DNA of 30,469 nucleotides from IMG/VR virus record IMGVR_UViG_3300017946_000060, positions 1 through 30,469 of that record. One strand, 5' to 3'. This stretch comes from a virus. The position numbers and the translations under genes were made by a program. Under the pieces are notes generated by a model, which was given only the letters and a program-made list of their open reading frames with translations, had not been told where the DNA came from and did not search any database. Shown in pieces: positions 5,013-18,829 of this stretch (the stretch's first letter is position 1; each line of letters starts with the position of its first letter).

Positions 5013-6080
5013 TTATAGATACTGTAATGCACCAATCACATTGACACCATTAACCAAATTGAACATAGTTTGACCAGATGGGAACCCCACACTGGCAAGA
5101 GTATTAGATAGCACTACCAAATCAAATGCTTGCGATACAGTGTTCGACTCCAAGCAACATTGGTTCACCATACCACCTGCAAGCAATGTTCTTCCAAATC
5201 CGCTAGTAACCGCAGCAGCTCCAGCGCCAATAATTATCTGTTGTCCAGGATTTTGGAATATATATACGTTGGCACCAGTTTGATTAGCAAAATGTATAGT
5301 GTCGCCTACGTTTAGGTTGGATACACCAGTAGGATTAACGACAGAAACACTACCAGCAACAATTGCTGGTGGCAGAATAAATGGCACAGTGCTTCCCGCG
5401 ATATTTTGAACCGTATATCCGTAATTAGTGTTCATCTGTATAGGAATGTTTACGCTAGCATCATTGCCATCAAAGTTGATGGTATATGCATTAGCTCCAG
5501 CGGTAGCATCTGCTAAGGTGGAATAAATGCTGAATGTTGTTGGTCGCACTGAGATAATCTTGATGAAGTAAAATGCAGCAGTCTCAAGTCCAGGATCAGG
5601 ATAAAGATAGGTGTTGATTATGTTTGCTGCAACCGCAGGAAAAGTACCTGGCAAGTCACCACCATTAGCACATGTAAACATTACGGGATATATAGCTCCA
5701 ACAACCGCACCAGGAATATCAGCGGTCAATGTAGCGTTGGGATTGCTGAAATCTGTGATTGAAAATGCAGTATTCTCAGTAGTAGTTACCGTACCAATGA
5801 CAGCACTAGCAGAATTGCCCATGCTATTCAATGCAACTGTTTTGTAGTAGATACTTGAGCTCTCTACGTAGAAAAATCCTTTGCCGTTTGGCAATCCAGT
5901 ACAATCGGATATGTAGAAAACGTCATTCACTGAAACCACAGGAGCAACACTCCCAAAGTACTTAGGGTCTGATGTGATCGCACCAAGTGTATCTACACTA
6001 GAACTGTATGTGTGGATTCTTGGTGCAACCTCATTGGCACTATATGTACTTAGATTCAACCCTTGTGCAGCAAATGACAT
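5013..6080 (-). CDS. Phage virion-associated protein, function unknown
   Basis: A 355-residue protein rich in Ala, Val, Gly, Asn and Thr with few charged residues, which suggests a beta-sheet virion component. It lies between the major capsid gene and the tail-fibre gene, with AAGGA 10 bases before ATG 6080. No catalytic motif is visible. Its middle (about residues 130-290) looks like successive beta-sandwich segments (NPNATLTADIPGA, AYTINFDGN, GDTIHFANQTGANVYIF), and a C-terminal hydrophobic segment ends in NVIGALQYL. Candidates are a capsid decoration/head fibre or the fibre-attachment protein. The T7-type tubular tail genes expected after the capsid gene are absent here, so this could also be a replaced tail component. 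I do not recognise a family. Confidence 0.7.
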   Translation of the reverse strand: MSFAAQGLNLSTYSANEVAPRIHTYSSSVDTLGAITSDPKYFGSVAPVVSVNDVFYISDCTGLPNGKGFFYVESSSIYYKTVALNSMGNSASAVIGTVTTTENTAFSITDFSNPNATLTADIPGAVVGAIYPVMFTCANGGDLPGTFPAVAANIINTYLYPDPGLETAAFYFIKIISVRPTTFSIYSTLADATAGANAYTINFDGNDASVNIPIQMNTNYGYTVQNIAGSTVPFILPPAIVAGSVSVVNPTGVSNLNVGDTIHFANQTGANVYIFQNPGQQIIIGAGAAAVTSGFGRTLLAGGMVNQCCLESNTVSQAFDLVVLSNTLASVGFPSGQTMFNLVNGVNVIGALQYL

Positions 6081-6131: not shown

Positions 6132-7088
6132 CTAGACAATATCAGATTCATTGCAGAATATCTTGAAGAAACCACGATTATCTACAACCGTTGCTCCTGC
6201 GAAGAATAATCCGTTAACGAACCAGGTAGTTTCTCTTGGTAAATAGCTAACCTCGGTACGCATGTCTTGTCCGATCGCCATACCAACCGCCATTTTGTGC
6301 CAAGCAAAACAAGTGCGAACACTTTGATTTGGGTGAGCAACAGTAGCTGTATCGTTCACTGGTAGGATATTCACTGGTAAACCGCCCTCAGTCATTGATG
6401 GCAATGTGCGAACATTCATACCTAACAATTCTTTGTAGTTTAGCGAACCATCAACTACAGCATCATTTGATGTGTAGAATCTGCTGATGATACGTTGATC
6501 GTTTAGCAAATTACGTAAATTATTGCCAGACATTGCTACAAATCTTTCACCAACAGGTACTGCATCTTGATCAAAGTACTGCACAATATTGCGCAACTTT
6601 GAGTAAGTCATGTTGGTTGTTCCATCGTTAGTTAATGCACCAGCCTGAGTCAATGTCAACGATCCGGTTGCCACATCAGGTGTAGGAGACGTAGGATCAA
6701 CATTTGTGTTTGTGGTAGCAGCTGTCATAGCATCAAGGATAATTTGATCGCTTCTGCGGCCAATTGCCATAGCAACAACCAACGCCAATTCTCTTTTGGT
6801 ATCGAAGTTTACTGTAAGATCTTCAATACTGTCCACGCCTGTACCAGCGGCATATTTGAGTAATGTGGCGATATATCCAGTGAAAGTAGCATCTTGAATA
6901 CTGATAGTATTTTGGTATGCAACCTGGTTAGCAATTACTTGTCCAACCTTCCTGAATTGACAAGTGTTACCGATGATGTCGGTACGTAGTCTCACTGCGT
7001 CACGTAATAGAAATCCACGTGATCTATATTCTACCTTGACGAGCGCATCGAATTCTGTTTGTTGAACATTGGTTAAACTAATACTCAT
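6132..7088 (-). CDS. Major capsid protein
   Basis: A 318-residue protein with features of HK97-fold phage capsids: no export signal, an N-terminal segment ending near RGFLLRDAVR, a central region with FDTKRELALVVAMAIGRRSDQIILDAM (helix plus loop typical of the spine/P-domain), then ERFVAMSGNNLRNLL and FAWHKMAVGMAIGQD, which match the late part of podovirus capsid proteins (compare 'HKxAVGxAxG' in P22/phi-type coats). Start ATG 7088 is preceded by GGAGG at 9 bases. It follows the scaffold and a 58-residue gene, which fits the usual connector-scaffold-capsid order. High confidence in the role, less in the exact family. Confidence 0.9.
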   Translation of the reverse strand: MSISLTNVQQTEFDALVKVEYRSRGFLLRDAVRLRTDIIGNTCQFRKVGQVIANQVAYQNTISIQDATFTGYIATLLKYAAGTGVDSIEDLTVNFDTKRELALVVAMAIGRRSDQIILDAMTAATTNTNVDPTSPTPDVATGSLTLTQAGALTNDGTTNMTYSKLRNIVQYFDQDAVPVGERFVAMSGNNLRNLLNDQRIISRFYTSNDAVVDGSLNYKELLGMNVRTLPSMTEGGLPVNILPVNDTATVAHPNQSVRTCFAWHKMAVGMAIGQDMRTEVSYLPRETTWFVNGLFFAGATVVDNRGFFKIFCNESDIV

Positions 7089-7552: not shown

Positions 7553-8284
7553 TTATTCTTTTCCTGAGCTCATCAATTGCGAGAACTTTGCTGATATTTG
7601 TGCTCTATATGCAGGGTCATTTTGGTACCTTGGATAATTCGCATACATCTCAGCTTCAATCTCAGCCTTTGATATTGGACTAAATGCTGGACCCTTCTGT
7701 GTGTCAGCAGGTATTTTTGCTAGCGTGTTCATGTGCAATTGACGAACCTCATCAAGCATCAACACTACCTCAGCACGCACTGGCAACTTCTCCAATGCTT
7801 TAGCAGATTCAGGTGTCAGATTGTTCTTGATCCAGTTCTGCAATGTATTTATTTTTTGCACGCCATCTGTGCCAAGTTTTGCAATTTCATCAGATGTGTT
7901 TGGTTGTTTGGATTTGTCGTAGTCGATCAATGTATTGATCACTTTGCCAAATGTTTCTTGCTGGATCTTGTTTTCTTTTGCATAGATAACGAAATCTTTG
8001 ATGTGGTGATTTTCTTTATCTATGTATTCTTGGTTTTCACCAAAATCATATTCCTCTGGTGCTGGCCTCAATGTGCCTAGCAATTTCTGTGCATCCTTGT
8101 ACGCCTTAGCTTGCTTAGCCATCACATACCCATATTTTTCTTCCAAGTATTCGGGGCGGGCACCTACTCCTGGCACACCTTCATCTACGTACCACTGTGG
8201 TGCTATAGCTTCTGGCACTATCGTAGTTGTTTCGGTGGATACATTACCTTCTGCAACACCAATATTGGCTAAGTTATCTTCCAT
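7553..8284 (-). CDS. Capsid assembly scaffolding protein
   Basis: A 243-residue acidic, helix-rich protein with AAGGAG before ATG 8284. The segment WYVDEGVPGVGARPEYL (residues 31-47), followed by EKYG and AKAYKDAQKLLG, is the conserved N-terminal signature of podovirus scaffold proteins, which begin with 'W..ddgvpG.GdrPewL..KY.sv..qAkaY'. The middle (95-200) is predicted long helices. It lies directly upstream of the capsid module and downstream of the portal, the normal place. Scaffolds guide procapsid assembly and are released or degraded before DNA packaging. Confidence 0.85.
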   Translation of the reverse strand: MEDNLANIGVAEGNVSTETTTIVPEAIAPQWYVDEGVPGVGARPEYLEEKYGYVMAKQAKAYKDAQKLLGTLRPAPEEYDFGENQEYIDKENHHIKDFVIYAKENKIQQETFGKVINTLIDYDKSKQPNTSDEIAKLGTDGVQKINTLQNWIKNNLTPESAKALEKLPVRAEVVLMLDEVRQLHMNTLAKIPADTQKGPAFSPISKAEIEAEMYANYPRYQNDPAYRAQISAKFSQLMSSGKE

Positions 8285-8364: not shown

Positions 8365-8700
8365 TTATCTTGTCGTTGTAGTTCCGCTAATGCGCCTCAT
8401 ATGCGCTAATCCGTTATCTTTCATTCCGCGAATTGCATCCTTGTAGCCTTCCCAGTACATTGCTAATTTGTCAGCAGCAGCATCTGTAGGTAGGAATTTT
8501 GCAGGAATAACAAATCTATCCATGTAGATTTCCATCAGTTTTTTTCCAGCTGGTGAAACAATAAATATTTCCCAACACAGTGATTGCAATTGTTCAGCTT
8601 CTTTGTGTCCATCTCTGGATTTTTCGCGGTAAAGTTTGTATGCCTCTGGTTCTTCTGGCATGATCAATGGATTGAAATATTCGCCACTATTGTGAGCCAC
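8365..8700 (-). CDS. Small phage protein between portal and scaffold, unknown function
   Basis: The 111-residue product is mixed-charge and mostly helical (AYKLYREKSRDGHKEAEQLQ, ADKLAMYWEGYKDAIRGM). I chose GTG 8700 because AAGGAGG ends five bases before it; a second in-frame GTG at 8706 sits too close to that Shine-Dalgarno. The start lies inside the 3' end of the portal gene (14-base overlap), indicating translational coupling. Small genes at this position occur in other T7-type phages, but I recognise no family. Confidence 0.65.
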   Translation of the reverse strand: MAHNSGEYFNPLIMPEEPEAYKLYREKSRDGHKEAEQLQSLCWEIFIVSPAGKKLMEIYMDRFVIPAKFLPTDAAADKLAMYWEGYKDAIRGMKDNGLAHMRRISGTTTTR

Positions 8701-15786: not shown

Positions 15787-16017
15787 TTGGAAAAAATTGC
15801 CCCGATGAGGAACCAGGGCTAAGAACCAATCAAATTGGTTGGAGATTGACAGCGGCTATAGTATCAGAATCAGGATCAATTTCATGTCAGACATTCACTG
15901 ACAGACTAATCCCTACAAAATCAGCGTATGTACACAGTGAGTTGCGTTTGTTTATTTGCTTTTGTACTCTATCTGGCAATGTAGATTCTGGCTGGAACTG
16001 AACAAGGGAGAAATGCT

Positions 16018-16785
16018 ATGACTAACTCATTGACGAATTCATATGCCCAAACATCTGAGCTACATTTGGTAGCAAAATCGCCGCGGGAAAAAGCAACAAA
16101 AGCATCGTTCGCTGGATGCCCAACTAGCGACAGAAAAATATTTCATCTATCAAAGTGTATTGTTCCGATAAGTTTAGGTGGTAGCAAAGAACATGAGGGC
16201 AACAAATTCGCTGCCACAGTGAAATTAATCAACTCCCACTTCAAGTCATGCTCTTTGCTGATAGTTGATAGTATCTATAGGTACACATTGAAGATCAATT
16301 ATCCCCATGAAACCGACACTATGCTTCTGCAACGCTCGATTGATGCTGGAGATCAATGGTTGGAAAGAAATGAAACTGCATGCAAGTCGCTGACCATACC
16401 TCACCGAATAATCAGGTGGGACGAATATCTGAAACACAAAAACTTCAACAAACACTACAACATAGTGTCAGAGCTATACAAAAAAGACGCTTCGTACAAG
16501 AAAGCATTGGATGATAGCACCGAAGAATACCTGACACGACATTTCCACGCAAATCCTGAACCGCGGTTTATCTCATACGAGGATGCTTTCCAATGCTGCA
16601 TCAATTATCTGAAAGAAGAATGTGCTTGTGTTTGCGTATTTGGTGGCGATTCGTTTGAGGAGTATGAATTTCAAGTATATCCAACAATGTTGACAACAGC
16701 TTTGATAGCTAACTACGAAAGGTTCATCAAACCAAATTATCCAAATTTGCTAAGACCGGTATCGCTACGGTTCCACAAAAAATGA
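16018..16785 (+). CDS. tRNA-dependent cyclodipeptide synthase (CDPS), XYP subfamily
   Basis: The 255-residue enzyme should join two aminoacyl groups taken from aminoacyl-tRNAs into a cyclic dipeptide (diketopiperazine) in the cytoplasm. The Rossmann-like core starts at about residue 44. Catalytic Ser52 sits in PISLGG, followed by HEGNKFAATVKLI as in other gammaproteobacterial members. The helix INYLKEE carries Tyr197 and, four residues on, Glu201, equivalent to AlbC Tyr178/Glu182. Tyr221-Pro222 (QVYPT) is 24 residues after Tyr197, exactly the AlbC Tyr178-Tyr202 spacing. A Gly at the '40' position plus YP places it in the XYP subfamily rather than NYH. Start ATG 16018 has AAGGGAG upstream. The next gene, a LuxR-type regulator, begins 10 bp on. 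Product amino acids cannot be predicted safely. Confidence 0.88.
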   Translation: MTNSLTNSYAQTSELHLVAKSPREKATKASFAGCPTSDRKIFHLSKCIVPISLGGSKEHEGNKFAATVKLINSHFKSCSLLIVDSIYRYTLKINYPHETDTMLLQRSIDAGDQWLERNETACKSLTIPHRIIRWDEYLKHKNFNKHYNIVSELYKKDASYKKALDDSTEEYLTRHFHANPEPRFISYEDAFQCCINYLKEECACVCVFGGDSFEEYEFQVYPTMLTTALIANYERFIKPNYPNLLRPVSLRFHKK

Positions 16786-16795
16786 TGAGCAACAC

Positions 16796-17425
16796 ATGAA
16801 GAATCTTTCAGCAAACACTATGTTCTACAACGCCACAGGCCATGTGTATTGGAAAAACAAGTATGGGGTATATCTAGGGTGCAACAGTAATCAAGCACAC
16901 ACATTGGGACTAGAGAGCCCAGCAGAAATAATTGGAAAAAGTGATTTCGATTTGTTGTGGAAAAACGATGCTGTGATTTGCAGAAAAAACGATCTATATG
17001 TTGTTGATTCTGGCAAACCGGAAATTGTCGAAGAAAAAACAACCATCAACGATCAATGCGTTACCTATCAAAGCCACAAAATACCACTGATCAACAAACA
17101 CAATGTCATCATAGGCGTATTTGGTATCTCAACCGATATTTCAGATTGCGTGCGGTTGCCCCCAAAAAACAACGTCACCCCAGAAGAACATGAACAATCT
17201 AGAAACATAGCTTTCAATAATCTATCACCACAAGAACTGATAGTGCTGAAAATGCTGGCTGCTGGGAAACCAAGAAAGGTAATCTCCAAGGAAATGGGGT
17301 TATCGATCAAGACTGTTGACACCTATCGTTCACGTATATTTGGAAAGCTAAATATCAAGAACAACATTGAGCTAATGCACTTCATCATTAGGAATAATTT
17401 GCGACATTTGATTCCGTGGGTGTAG
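16796..17425 (+). CDS. PAS-LuxR transcriptional regulator
   Basis: A 209-residue regulator. The PAS domain covers about 8-118 (GHVYWKNKYGVYLGCN, IIGKSDFDLLW, and the closing VIIGVFGISTDIS strand), able to bind a small ligand or cofactor. A linker follows, then a LuxR/FixJ-type HTH at 142-205 (NNLSPQELIVLKMLAAGKPRK; GLSIKTVDTYRSRIFGKL). There is no receiver domain, so it is probably controlled by the PAS ligand rather than phosphorylation. Proteins of this layout are common in Legionella and Coxiella relatives. Ten bases after the CDPS stop, it is surely co-transcribed with it. The hairpin repeats downstream or the palindromes upstream of the CDPS gene may be its targets. Whether it senses the CDPS product is untested. 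Confidence 0.88.
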   Translation: MKNLSANTMFYNATGHVYWKNKYGVYLGCNSNQAHTLGLESPAEIIGKSDFDLLWKNDAVICRKNDLYVVDSGKPEIVEEKTTINDQCVTYQSHKIPLINKHNVIIGVFGISTDISDCVRLPPKNNVTPEEHEQSRNIAFNNLSPQELIVLKMLAAGKPRKVISKEMGLSIKTVDTYRSRIFGKLNIKNNIELMHFIIRNNLRHLIPWV

Positions 17426-17443
17426 ATCGATAGCAGATAGTCG

Positions 17444-17534
17444 GCCAAAATACGATCTATTGGGTCACTTTTGGCTGAGTATACGCTATACTGTGCCAAA
17501 ACATACTATCTCATGCCACTTTTGGCGCAGTATA
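17444..17534. repeat. Paired hairpin/direct-repeat block after the PAS-LuxR gene
   Basis: Two hairpins with identical 7-bp arms, GCCAAAA/TTTTGGC, lie at 17444-17475 and 17495-17526. Each is followed by a copy of CACTTTTGGC-NN-AGTATA (17466-17483 and 17517-17534). Between them is a perfect palindrome, AGTATA-CGC-TATACT (17478-17492). This may be a regulator-binding array or a duplicated terminator-like element; no T-run follows. Confidence 0.6.
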
Positions 17535-17540
17535 GCCAAG

Positions 17541-17602: not shown

Positions 17603-17608
17603 AGACGA

Positions 17609-17673
17609 GTCACCAAAGGGGATCGAACCCCCGCCAACTGCAAGCAGTTATCCTACCATTGGAATATGGCAAC
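17609..17673 (-). tRNA. Degenerate tRNA-like sequence with shortened anticodon arm (Cys-like)
   Basis: Acceptor GTTGCCA (17673-17667) pairs over seven positions with TGGTGAC (17615-17609), including two G-U pairs. The D arm TTCC-AATGGTA-GGAT has the normal GG, and the T arm GGGGG-TTCGATC-CCCTT is canonical. The anticodon arm is about 5-6 bases too short (ACTGCTTGCAGT). It could derive from a Cys(GCA) arm by deletion between two GCA repeats. A further 5' tRNA-like fragment (GCTGGTGTAGCTTAG) lies just upstream at about 17687-17706. Confidence 0.45.
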
Positions 17674-17718: not shown

Positions 17719-17946
17719 TCATTTATTGCAGTATTCTTCGATAGCTTGACGAACTATATCTGCCATACATACCTTTTCTTTGTTAGCTACATTGTTAGCT
17801 GCAATCTTAGCAATGAACAACAGATGAAACTCCTCTGGCAAATTAATGTTTAGCTGATTTCGTTTAGGTTTATTGCCTATCCATTTGTCGCCACTACATG
17901 GCTGCTGTGTTTTCTTAGCGGTTGGATTAATCGTGAATTTTTTCAT
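17719..17946 (-). CDS. Ribbon-helix-helix protein, probable ParB-equivalent partner of ParA
   Basis: A 75-residue protein with a basic, Lys/Asn-rich N-terminus (1-30) and a ribbon-helix-helix fold at 31-73: strand NQLNINLP, helix EEFHLLFIAKIAANNV, helix MADIVRQAIEEYC. This matches the layout of small centromere-binding proteins (ParG/Omega type) encoded just after type Ib ParA, and the basic tail could stimulate the ATPase. It starts at ATG 17946, 51 bp after the parA stop. The gap holds an operator-like copy (17977-17994). It could also be a stand-alone repressor of the sigma promoter, which carries matching sites. Confidence 0.75.
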   Translation of the reverse strand: MKKFTINPTAKKTQQPCSGDKWIGNKPKRNQLNINLPEEFHLLFIAKIAANNVANKEKVCMADIVRQAIEEYCNK

Positions 17947-17997: not shown

Positions 17998-18654
17998 CTA
18001 TACATTACTCATTATTTTCTCATAGAGCACCAAGATTTCTTTGCTGGCAAGTCCTTCTTTGTCATTTTCTTGAACCGCTAATCCCATAGCTGCCGCCTCT
18101 GAAAAAATTACCCTATGAGAAATTTTGCAATCTAATACAGGTATCTTGAGATCTATTTTTTGCTCTATCTCAACTATAGCTTCTTGGATATCTCGACCAA
18201 TTACCGAGTTACTTTTCTTCATGTTGATCATCAAGAAGAACTTGAGATTAGGCTTGTACATCATTGCCTCTTTGAGCGTAATGAAAGTTCCTTCACTTGC
18301 CCAGATGTCAAATGGGGAAGGGGTGCAGGGAACGATGATAATGTCAGACGCAAGAACAGCAGATTTAGCTATATCGGTTGTGCGCGGTGGAGAATCAATT
18401 ATCACCATATCGTAGCCTTTAGCGTTTGCTGGCAAATCTCTATGTAAGGTCATTTTGGGCATAGCCATCAATGCAAGATTGGCTGGCAGCTCTTGGTGAC
18501 GATGGTCTGACCATTCCATGATCGATAATTGAGGGTCAGCATCCACAATTAATGTTTTTTTGCCTAATTTTGCGCTTTGATGTGCAACGCAGATAGCTAA
18601 CGTAGATTTACCTACTCCACCCTTCTGGTTAACGAATCCAGTAGTTATCGTCAT
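17998..18654 (-). CDS. parA: ParA-family partition ATPase (type Ib)
   Basis: 218 residues starting at ATG 18654 with AGGAG seven bases upstream. The deviant Walker A motif QKGGVGKSTLA lies at 9-19, Walker A' VDADPQ near 39-44, and Walker B MVIIDSPP near 83-90. The protein lacks an N-terminal HTH, so it is the short plasmid type Ib. ParA forms ATP-dependent gradients on the nucleoid that move plasmid copies to daughter cells. The RHH protein encoded next is the presumed adaptor. Its presence with virion genes implies low-copy extrachromosomal maintenance of the element. Confidence 0.9.
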   Translation of the reverse strand: MTITTGFVNQKGGVGKSTLAICVAHQSAKLGKKTLIVDADPQLSIMEWSDHRHQELPANLALMAMPKMTLHRDLPANAKGYDMVIIDSPPRTTDIAKSAVLASDIIIVPCTPSPFDIWASEGTFITLKEAMMYKPNLKFFLMINMKKSNSVIGRDIQEAIVEIEQKIDLKIPVLDCKISHRVIFSEAAAMGLAVQENDKEGLASKEILVLYEKIMSNV

Positions 18655-18708: not shown

Positions 18709-18829
18709 ACGAATAGCAAGCACTATTTTGCAACCTGATGCAACCGTATCCATTTTGGAAACAGTTGCATAGACATTCCCGCTAAATATCTACATAATAT
18801 TTGCTGATATAGATTGAGGATAAGTACTA

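Follow-up and report, generated by a model that had tools for sequence, protein, structure and literature searches.

A candidate cyclodipeptide/PAS-LuxR signalling circuit in a phage, related to synthase-sensor modules of Legionellales

The 30,469-bp IMG/VR virus record IMGVR_UViG_3300017946_000060, analysed here over its whole length and referred to as the window, encodes a cyclodipeptide synthase (CDPS) directly followed by a regulator that joins a PAS domain to a LuxR-type helix-turn-helix (HTH). We favour, by somewhat better than even chances, the reading that the phage carries a self-contained cyclodipeptide/PAS-LuxR signalling circuit, likely steering its lifestyle, for which we infer activity, product, ligand binding, promoter targets and lifestyle role. 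In the proposed mechanism, the CDPS would couple two amino acids carried on aminoacyl-tRNAs into a cyclic dipeptide. This product, or a close derivative, would be the ligand of the adjacent regulator's PAS domain. As in the case of VqmA and DPO, ligand binding would alter the regulator's contact with DNA and, with it, phage gene transcription. The unit would be derived from a Legionellales chromosomal module of CDPS and PAS-histidine kinase; with the phage PAS fused directly to a NarL/LuxR-type DNA-binding domain, the two-component form would be short-circuited into one protein, like VqmA. Because the product would be diffusible, its likeliest use would be for carriers to report their presence and to bias maintenance (ParA-dependent, in the style of a phage-plasmid) versus lysis. 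By analogy with VP882, arbitrium and phage LuxI/LuxR systems, such a lifestyle role is probable, and the product may allow the element to count its kin or its host density, as a first-pass annotation made from the sequence alone had suggested.

A cyclodipeptide synthase gene adjoins a PAS-LuxR regulator gene

The two genes are:
16018-16785, plus strand: CDPS of the XYP subfamily, 255 aa (catalytic residues, PDB match, predicted fold)
16796-17425, plus strand: PAS and LuxR-type HTH one-component regulator, 209 aa (Pfam, VqmA-like predicted fold, PAS family comparison)

The basic layout described by the first-pass annotation holds: the genes are separated by 10 bp on the same strand, the element also encodes virion proteins and ParA (portal, PF12236, E = 5e-73; capsid, PF19821, E = 3e-49; a head-assembly protein; ParA scoring above its NCBIfam cut-off), and the CDPS carries S52, Y197, E201 and Y221-P222. 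These residues, unchanged in all 17 aligned CDPSs, supply the full XYP catalytic set, which we take to be S37, Y178, E182 and Y202 in AlbC numbering with a proline after the last tyrosine. The top PDB sequence match is the Fluoribacter dumoffii CDPS 5ocd (phmmer, E = 2e-54; 41% identity), and the AlphaFold model (pLDDT 88), which has the Rossmann CDPS fold, leads to the same structure in Foldseek (E = 1e-26, TM 0.94).

For the regulator, Pfam confirms both annotated parts (GerE, E = 1e-15; PAS_4, E = 9e-9). Its predicted model (pLDDT 79, with an uncertain domain arrangement) has VqmA structures as all of its best eight PDB fold matches, including VP882 VqmA-DPO (7dwm). Architecture (PAS plus LuxR/NarL HTH) and predicted fold are therefore of VqmA type; at a sequence identity of ~20%, we do not claim membership in VqmA proper. 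LuxI/LuxR quorum sensing was rejected as a class, since the locus holds neither a LuxI synthase nor an autoinducer-binding domain (Pfam gives PAS and GerE only, and the synthase is a CDPS). Arbitrium was rejected as well, the Pfam results for both proteins containing no AimR-type TPR receptor and no secreted AimP peptide. A full-length chromosomal PAS-LuxR relative occurs in a Legionella genome (locus L097, G007:C41:4592-5143; 37% over residues 4-197), with no CDPS within ~5 kb.

The phage PAS domain belongs to a family that tracks CDPS genes in Legionellales

A genome scan with a CDPS alignment gave 46 loci, complemented by an Endohaliclona plasmid. By CDPS similarity, 26 are of Legionellales type (L004, L007-L030, L032), a few of them from metagenome-assembled genomes (MAGs) labelled only Gammaproteobacteria or Proteobacteria. 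A PAS-histidine kinase gene adjoins the CDPS gene or sits one gene off in 24 of these 26 loci; in Legionella tucsonensis the kinase lies ~10 kb away, and the last locus holds a kinase remnant only. The remaining 21 CDPS loci, among them those of actinobacteria and Pseudomonas, gave no PAS-histidine kinase match. The CDPS-linked kinases combine HisKA and HATPase with one PAS domain or two; receiver and Hpt domains are often added, and an N-terminal PQ-loop membrane domain is sometimes present. A NarL-type response regulator is also nearby in two CDPS loci.

When the phage PAS alone was searched in 11 CDPS-carrying genomes, each returned 4-12 PAS matches, and the best match was CDPS-linked in all 11 (including L060, L061, L062, L066-L069 and L082, which had first been taken as unlinked). 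The phage domain is thus more similar to CDPS-adjacent PAS domains than to other PAS domains of the same genomes, a result with a probability of ~5e-4 under random within-genome ranking, this estimate being conservative because some weak matches were left out. Across the order, a CDPS was detected in 57 of 143 genomes, and 57 of 75 Legionellales CDPSs have a listed family PAS match within 5 kb. Conversely, 57 of the 141 listed PAS matches lie near a CDPS, compared with ~0.5 expected by chance; as many unlinked PAS loci are on short contigs, this linkage count is a lower bound. The association extends to a second, diverged CDPS type (22-26% identity). In a phylogenetic tree, the phage PAS falls, with moderate support (85/84), together with those PAS domains of CDPS-linked kinases that lie innermost, next to the kinase part. 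Taken together, this comparison indicates that the phage carries a Legionellales-type synthase-sensor unit in which a one-component LuxR output replaces the kinase. The earlier proposal of a single signalling unit made up of enzyme and regulator is strongly supported, on comparative grounds, by this tracking and by the retention of the pair in a second phage (see below); binding of a ligand is a prediction. On a Legionella antarctica plasmid (L083:4551-7537), a family PAS kinase is found near a carbon storage regulator gene.

Much less probable, in our assessment, is a metabolite operon, in which the CDPS would make a bioactive compound (antimicrobial, amoeba-directed or tRNA-draining) and the PAS-LuxR protein would sense redox or energy state only. 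Antimicrobial activity is common among CDPS products, PAS domains are frequent sensors of such cues, and the pair lies in an accessory region between tRNA-like genes. Such an operon fails to explain, however, why this PAS subfamily tracks CDPS genes across both kinases and the LuxR-type regulator, and no tailoring enzyme adjoins the phage CDPS.

A second phage retains the pair, and phages acquired the unit at least twice

The search for the same pair proposed by the first-pass annotation was productive in part. In IMG/VR, a single-sequence search led no further than a record of this element that overlaps the window, whereas a family-alignment search found a second phage with the pair (record 3300048826_000083; loci L122 and L127) and two further prophage records; a CDPS search of INPHARED phages gave no match. 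The two phages are 93% identical in the portal, 89% in the capsid, 58% in the CDPS and 66% in the LuxR protein, and share the gene order sigma factor, conserved open reading frame (ORF), CDPS, LuxR, ParA, phosphoesterase and exonuclease. The catalytic residues of the second CDPS are intact. Nonsynonymous and synonymous divergence (NG86 dN/dS) is 0.278/1.95 for the CDPS and 0.252/1.34 for LuxR, ratios that are rough because dS is near saturation; with dN well below dS in both genes, the pair is retained by purifying selection. Since pair and virion genes are linked on two independent contigs of two phages, a chimeric assembly is excluded. These data bear on the view that the pair is a decaying moron, or cargo whose two genes are linked without a shared function. 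Phages do carry unrelated cargo genes, and CDPS and LuxR diverge faster than the virion genes (58-66% versus 91-93% identity), but the conserved order and reading frames, the low dN and the intact catalytic residues make this explanation very improbable. The second phage also encodes a tmRNA (L122:5150-5508, plus strand; Rfam 134.7 bits, tag ANADETFYALAA); of the two tRNAs that follow at 5518-5681, one had its anticodon called with four bases (gtat).

In the CDPS tree, the two phage enzymes form a clade (100/100) that lies inside the Legionellales CDPSs and has an enzyme from a Coxiellaceae MAG as its sister (88/87). An unrelated prophage with a P22-type portal (L123:4461-8741) carries, between terminase and integrase, a CDPS and a PQ-loop-PAS-PAS-kinase-receiver-Hpt protein, and its CDPS branches elsewhere among Legionellales; the separate tree positions imply two or more acquisitions of the unit by phages. 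A third, prophage-like record (L124:7291-8537) has a diverged CDPS-like gene (27% identity) directly 3' of an XRE-type regulator gene. The unit of synthase and PAS sensor is a mainly chromosomal Legionellales module with histidine-kinase output, which phages evidently acquired. The first-pass annotation had held that occurrence mainly in chromosomes would speak against its proposal. This applies to a phage origin, given the kinase-form module of Legionellales, but the exact CDPS and PAS-LuxR form was found in the two phages only, and the chromosomal occurrence of the unit strengthens the signalling reading.

Divergent substrate pockets suggest private signals

Known Legionella-type enzymes include the F. 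dumoffii CDPS, which uses two Gly-tRNAs (review PMC12945691), and the Legionella lansingensis CDPS, whose product is cGE (PMC5816076). We mapped pocket positions only where conserved residues anchor the alignment. There, the Legionella enzymes vary little among themselves (LPWVME / N-(D or E)-FRSRN), compared with IPWCVQ / SEYRTLT in the window CDPS and LPWGVM / SEYRGLG in that of the second phage. The window enzyme differs from the Legionella set at 10 of 13 mapped positions, and the two phages also differ from each other, so that phage products may differ from the Legionella type and between phages. Judged by these residues, the divergent pockets suggest private signals. A product prediction from the P1/P2 pocket residues was dropped, as no known signature matches.

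A broader proposal, on which we remain slightly on the doubting side, starts from a general PAS family that would sense cyclodipeptides and, across Legionellales, connect CDPSs with two-component signalling. The present phages would be its phage branch, a lineage communicating through a self-made cyclic dipeptide derived from tRNA, with synthase and PAS-LuxR receptor co-diverging into private dialects. The pockets also bear on host manipulation or eavesdropping, an unlikely but serious contender in which a captured host cyclodipeptide system would yield a product acting mainly on host PAS kinases, or the LuxR protein would hear a host cyclodipeptide, or both; the exchange would then run between phage and host instead of among phages. 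Legionellales CDPSs, present in the 57 genomes noted above together with homologous PAS sensors, would fit it, as would the RpoS-like sigma, CsrA and HD-hydrolase-like genes of the element, which could act on host regulation; there is also the precedent of phage VP882, whose VqmA listens to host DPO (PMC12802170). Against it, the ten altered pocket positions and the difference between the phages suggest a different product, and our searches did not establish a Legionellales host.

Observations weighing against a signalling circuit

Returning to the self-contained circuit, several observations count against it. PAS domains bind many ligands and may serve dimerisation only. In the second phage, H16N, Q33H and W55L change PAS residues typical of the CDPS-linked family; by sequence, these changes would fit joint CDPS-PAS divergence, but drift could explain them. 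Some PAS kinases of the family have no detected CDPS anywhere near them. A Pfam scan of the CDPS protein returned zero family matches, and its NCBIfam TIGR04539 match (E = 2e-7) falls below the trusted cut-off (30.6 versus 45 bits), a score that is an annotation threshold and not a functional feature; fold and residues support XYP CDPS membership although this cut-off is missed. A LuxR operator could not be assigned; the only conserved palindrome lies near ParA and not at the CDPS promoter. Concerning lifestyle, no integrase was recognised in the window or in locus L005 (both partial; a serine resolvase is present), nor any known lysis-lysogeny switch gene in the available sequence of the element. 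No portal gene related to that of the phage was found in 143 Legionellales genomes at the threshold used, in a search run without a positive control.

Candidate regulatory sites and gene content of the element

The regulatory and repeat features considered are:
15787-16017, plus strand: leader of the CDPS-LuxR operon, with a Shine-Dalgarno-like AAGGGAG before the CDPS ATG (read directly from the sequence); little conservation from one phage to the other
18738-18770, no strand: palindrome with 15-bp arms, ATGCAACCGTATCCATTTTGGAAACAGTTGCAT, in the divergent ParA/phosphoesterase promoter region; one copy in each phage; candidate regulator operator

This palindrome is the most striking conserved one in the regions compared between the phages. 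A second candidate, TTCCACGTGGAA, was rejected as a LuxR operator because its frequency is no higher than chance. A 21-nt inverted repeat (95%) of TAGATA/CTATAC type lies at 14845-14912, with similar motifs on both sides of ParA in both phages; these repeats are a possible partition site. Just past the LuxR stop codon, overlapping inverted repeats of 15-21 nt (GCCAAAA/TTTTGGC) at 17430-17536 are partly conserved in the second phage.

Other genes of the window are:
6132-7088, minus strand: major capsid protein (domain and phage-family matches)
7553-8284, minus strand: scaffold or head assembly protein (phage-family match)
8687-10288, minus strand: portal, or head-tail connector (domain and phage-family matches)
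11686-12963, minus strand: caspase-like (Peptidase C14) protein (Pfam)
13539-14879, minus strand: RpoS/RpoD-like sigma factor with an internal insertion (domain matches)
15206-15277, plus strand: tRNA-like gene upstream of the pair (Rfam 44.8 bits; ARAGORN negative)
15322-15786, plus strand: upstream ORF, 154 aa (weak VapB/DUF2281-like match; 70% identity in the second phage)
17608-17673, minus strand: tRNA-like gene downstream of the pair, its anticodon loop shortened (Rfam 43.3 bits; ARAGORN negative)
17719-17946, minus strand: 75-aa ORF downstream of ParA, ribbon-helix-helix-like by eye, a possible ParA partner; no Pfam or PHROG match
17998-18654, minus strand: ParA partition ATPase (above the NCBIfam NF041546 cut-off)

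With portal, capsid and ParA, the element combines virion genes and a partition system, as phage-plasmids do, and looks like a podophage-type element kept via partition. It is known from two partial records. The second of them (G001, 32.6 kb) shares with the window an overlap of 99.9-100% identity and adds ~12.9 kb encoding CsrA, an HD_4 (RelA/SpoT-type) protein, a Toprim/ATPase primase-helicase-like protein and a serine resolvase. HD_4 protein and CsrA (L005:4162-4656 and 5109-5471) thus share one element with the RpoS-like sigma factor; each of the three is homologous to a regulator that acts in the biphasic life cycle of Legionella. The two tRNA-like genes flank the CDPS-LuxR region, the downstream one lacking most of its anticodon loop. 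At the contig end (30017-30469), a low-complexity Met-Ala-Leu coding repeat runs on into G001. The caspase-like protein had no match in 133 Legionellales genomes and was not found in the second phage; host searches in Legionellales with caspase and sigma factor, run without a positive control, were empty at the thresholds used, that for sigma being too strict.

Significance and comparison with known systems

PAS domains have been described among common CDPS neighbours, with quorum sensing suggested (Skinnider et al. 2018, PMC5767969). Since CDPSs came to notice in intracellular bacteria (PMC2922099), those of Legionella and its relatives have lacked an assigned role. In the open-access literature, which covers few subscription-journal papers, we found no report of a phage CDPS, a phage cyclodipeptide receptor or the Legionellales CDPS-PAS family, and no published function for the Legionellales loci of CDPS and PAS-histidine kinase. 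If our reading is correct, cyclic dipeptides would be a further chemical class of self-made phage signal besides peptides (arbitrium) and acyl-homoserine lactones, and, being made directly from aminoacyl-tRNA, the signal would make the output follow the translation state of the cell. It would also give the CDPSs of Legionella and relatives a testable function, namely to supply ligands for adjacent PAS kinases; dozens of genomes and two or more phage lineages offer matched synthase-sensor pairs.

Among characterised enzymes, F. dumoffii 5ocd shares the XYP class, the fold and 41% identity with the window CDPS and differs in its substrate-pocket residues. The Legionellales loci (for example Legionella sp. 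PC1000, Fluoribacter gormanii, Endohaliclona plasmid p-ren) likewise place a homologous CDPS (~32-43% identity) beside a homologous PAS sensor (~34-54%), but they have a (hybrid) histidine kinase as output, in some loci one with a PQ-loop membrane domain, and are chromosomal or plasmid-borne. The first-pass annotation had likened the pair to peptide-based phage communication. The logic of a phage-borne signal and receptor stands, but the closest mechanistic analogue is VP882 VqmA and not arbitrium. Arbitrium (AimP/AimR of Bacillus phages) resembles the window pair in its phage-encoded signal and receptor reporting carrier density, as proposed here, and differs in using a ribosomal peptide and a TPR-type receptor, proteins unrelated to ours. 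Phage LuxI/LuxR synthase-receptor pairs, described for Phaeobacter prophages in a 2026 preprint (PMC13345283), also place a synthase and a LuxR-HTH receptor on a phage, but rely on acyl-homoserine lactone chemistry, LuxI and an autoinducer-binding domain, none of which the window locus has. Receptor-only phages are known from VqmA (PMC12802170). In the VqmA-DPO system of phage VP882 and Vibrio cholerae, the receptor is a PAS plus LuxR-HTH one-component protein with the closest PDB fold to our predicted model, the phage is plasmid-like, and DPO is a small nitrogen-heterocyclic ligand derived from amino acids, as predicted for the cyclodipeptide. VP882, however, encodes the receptor only and uses host-made DPO, whereas the window, at ~20% receptor identity, adds an adjacent synthase, a CDPS.
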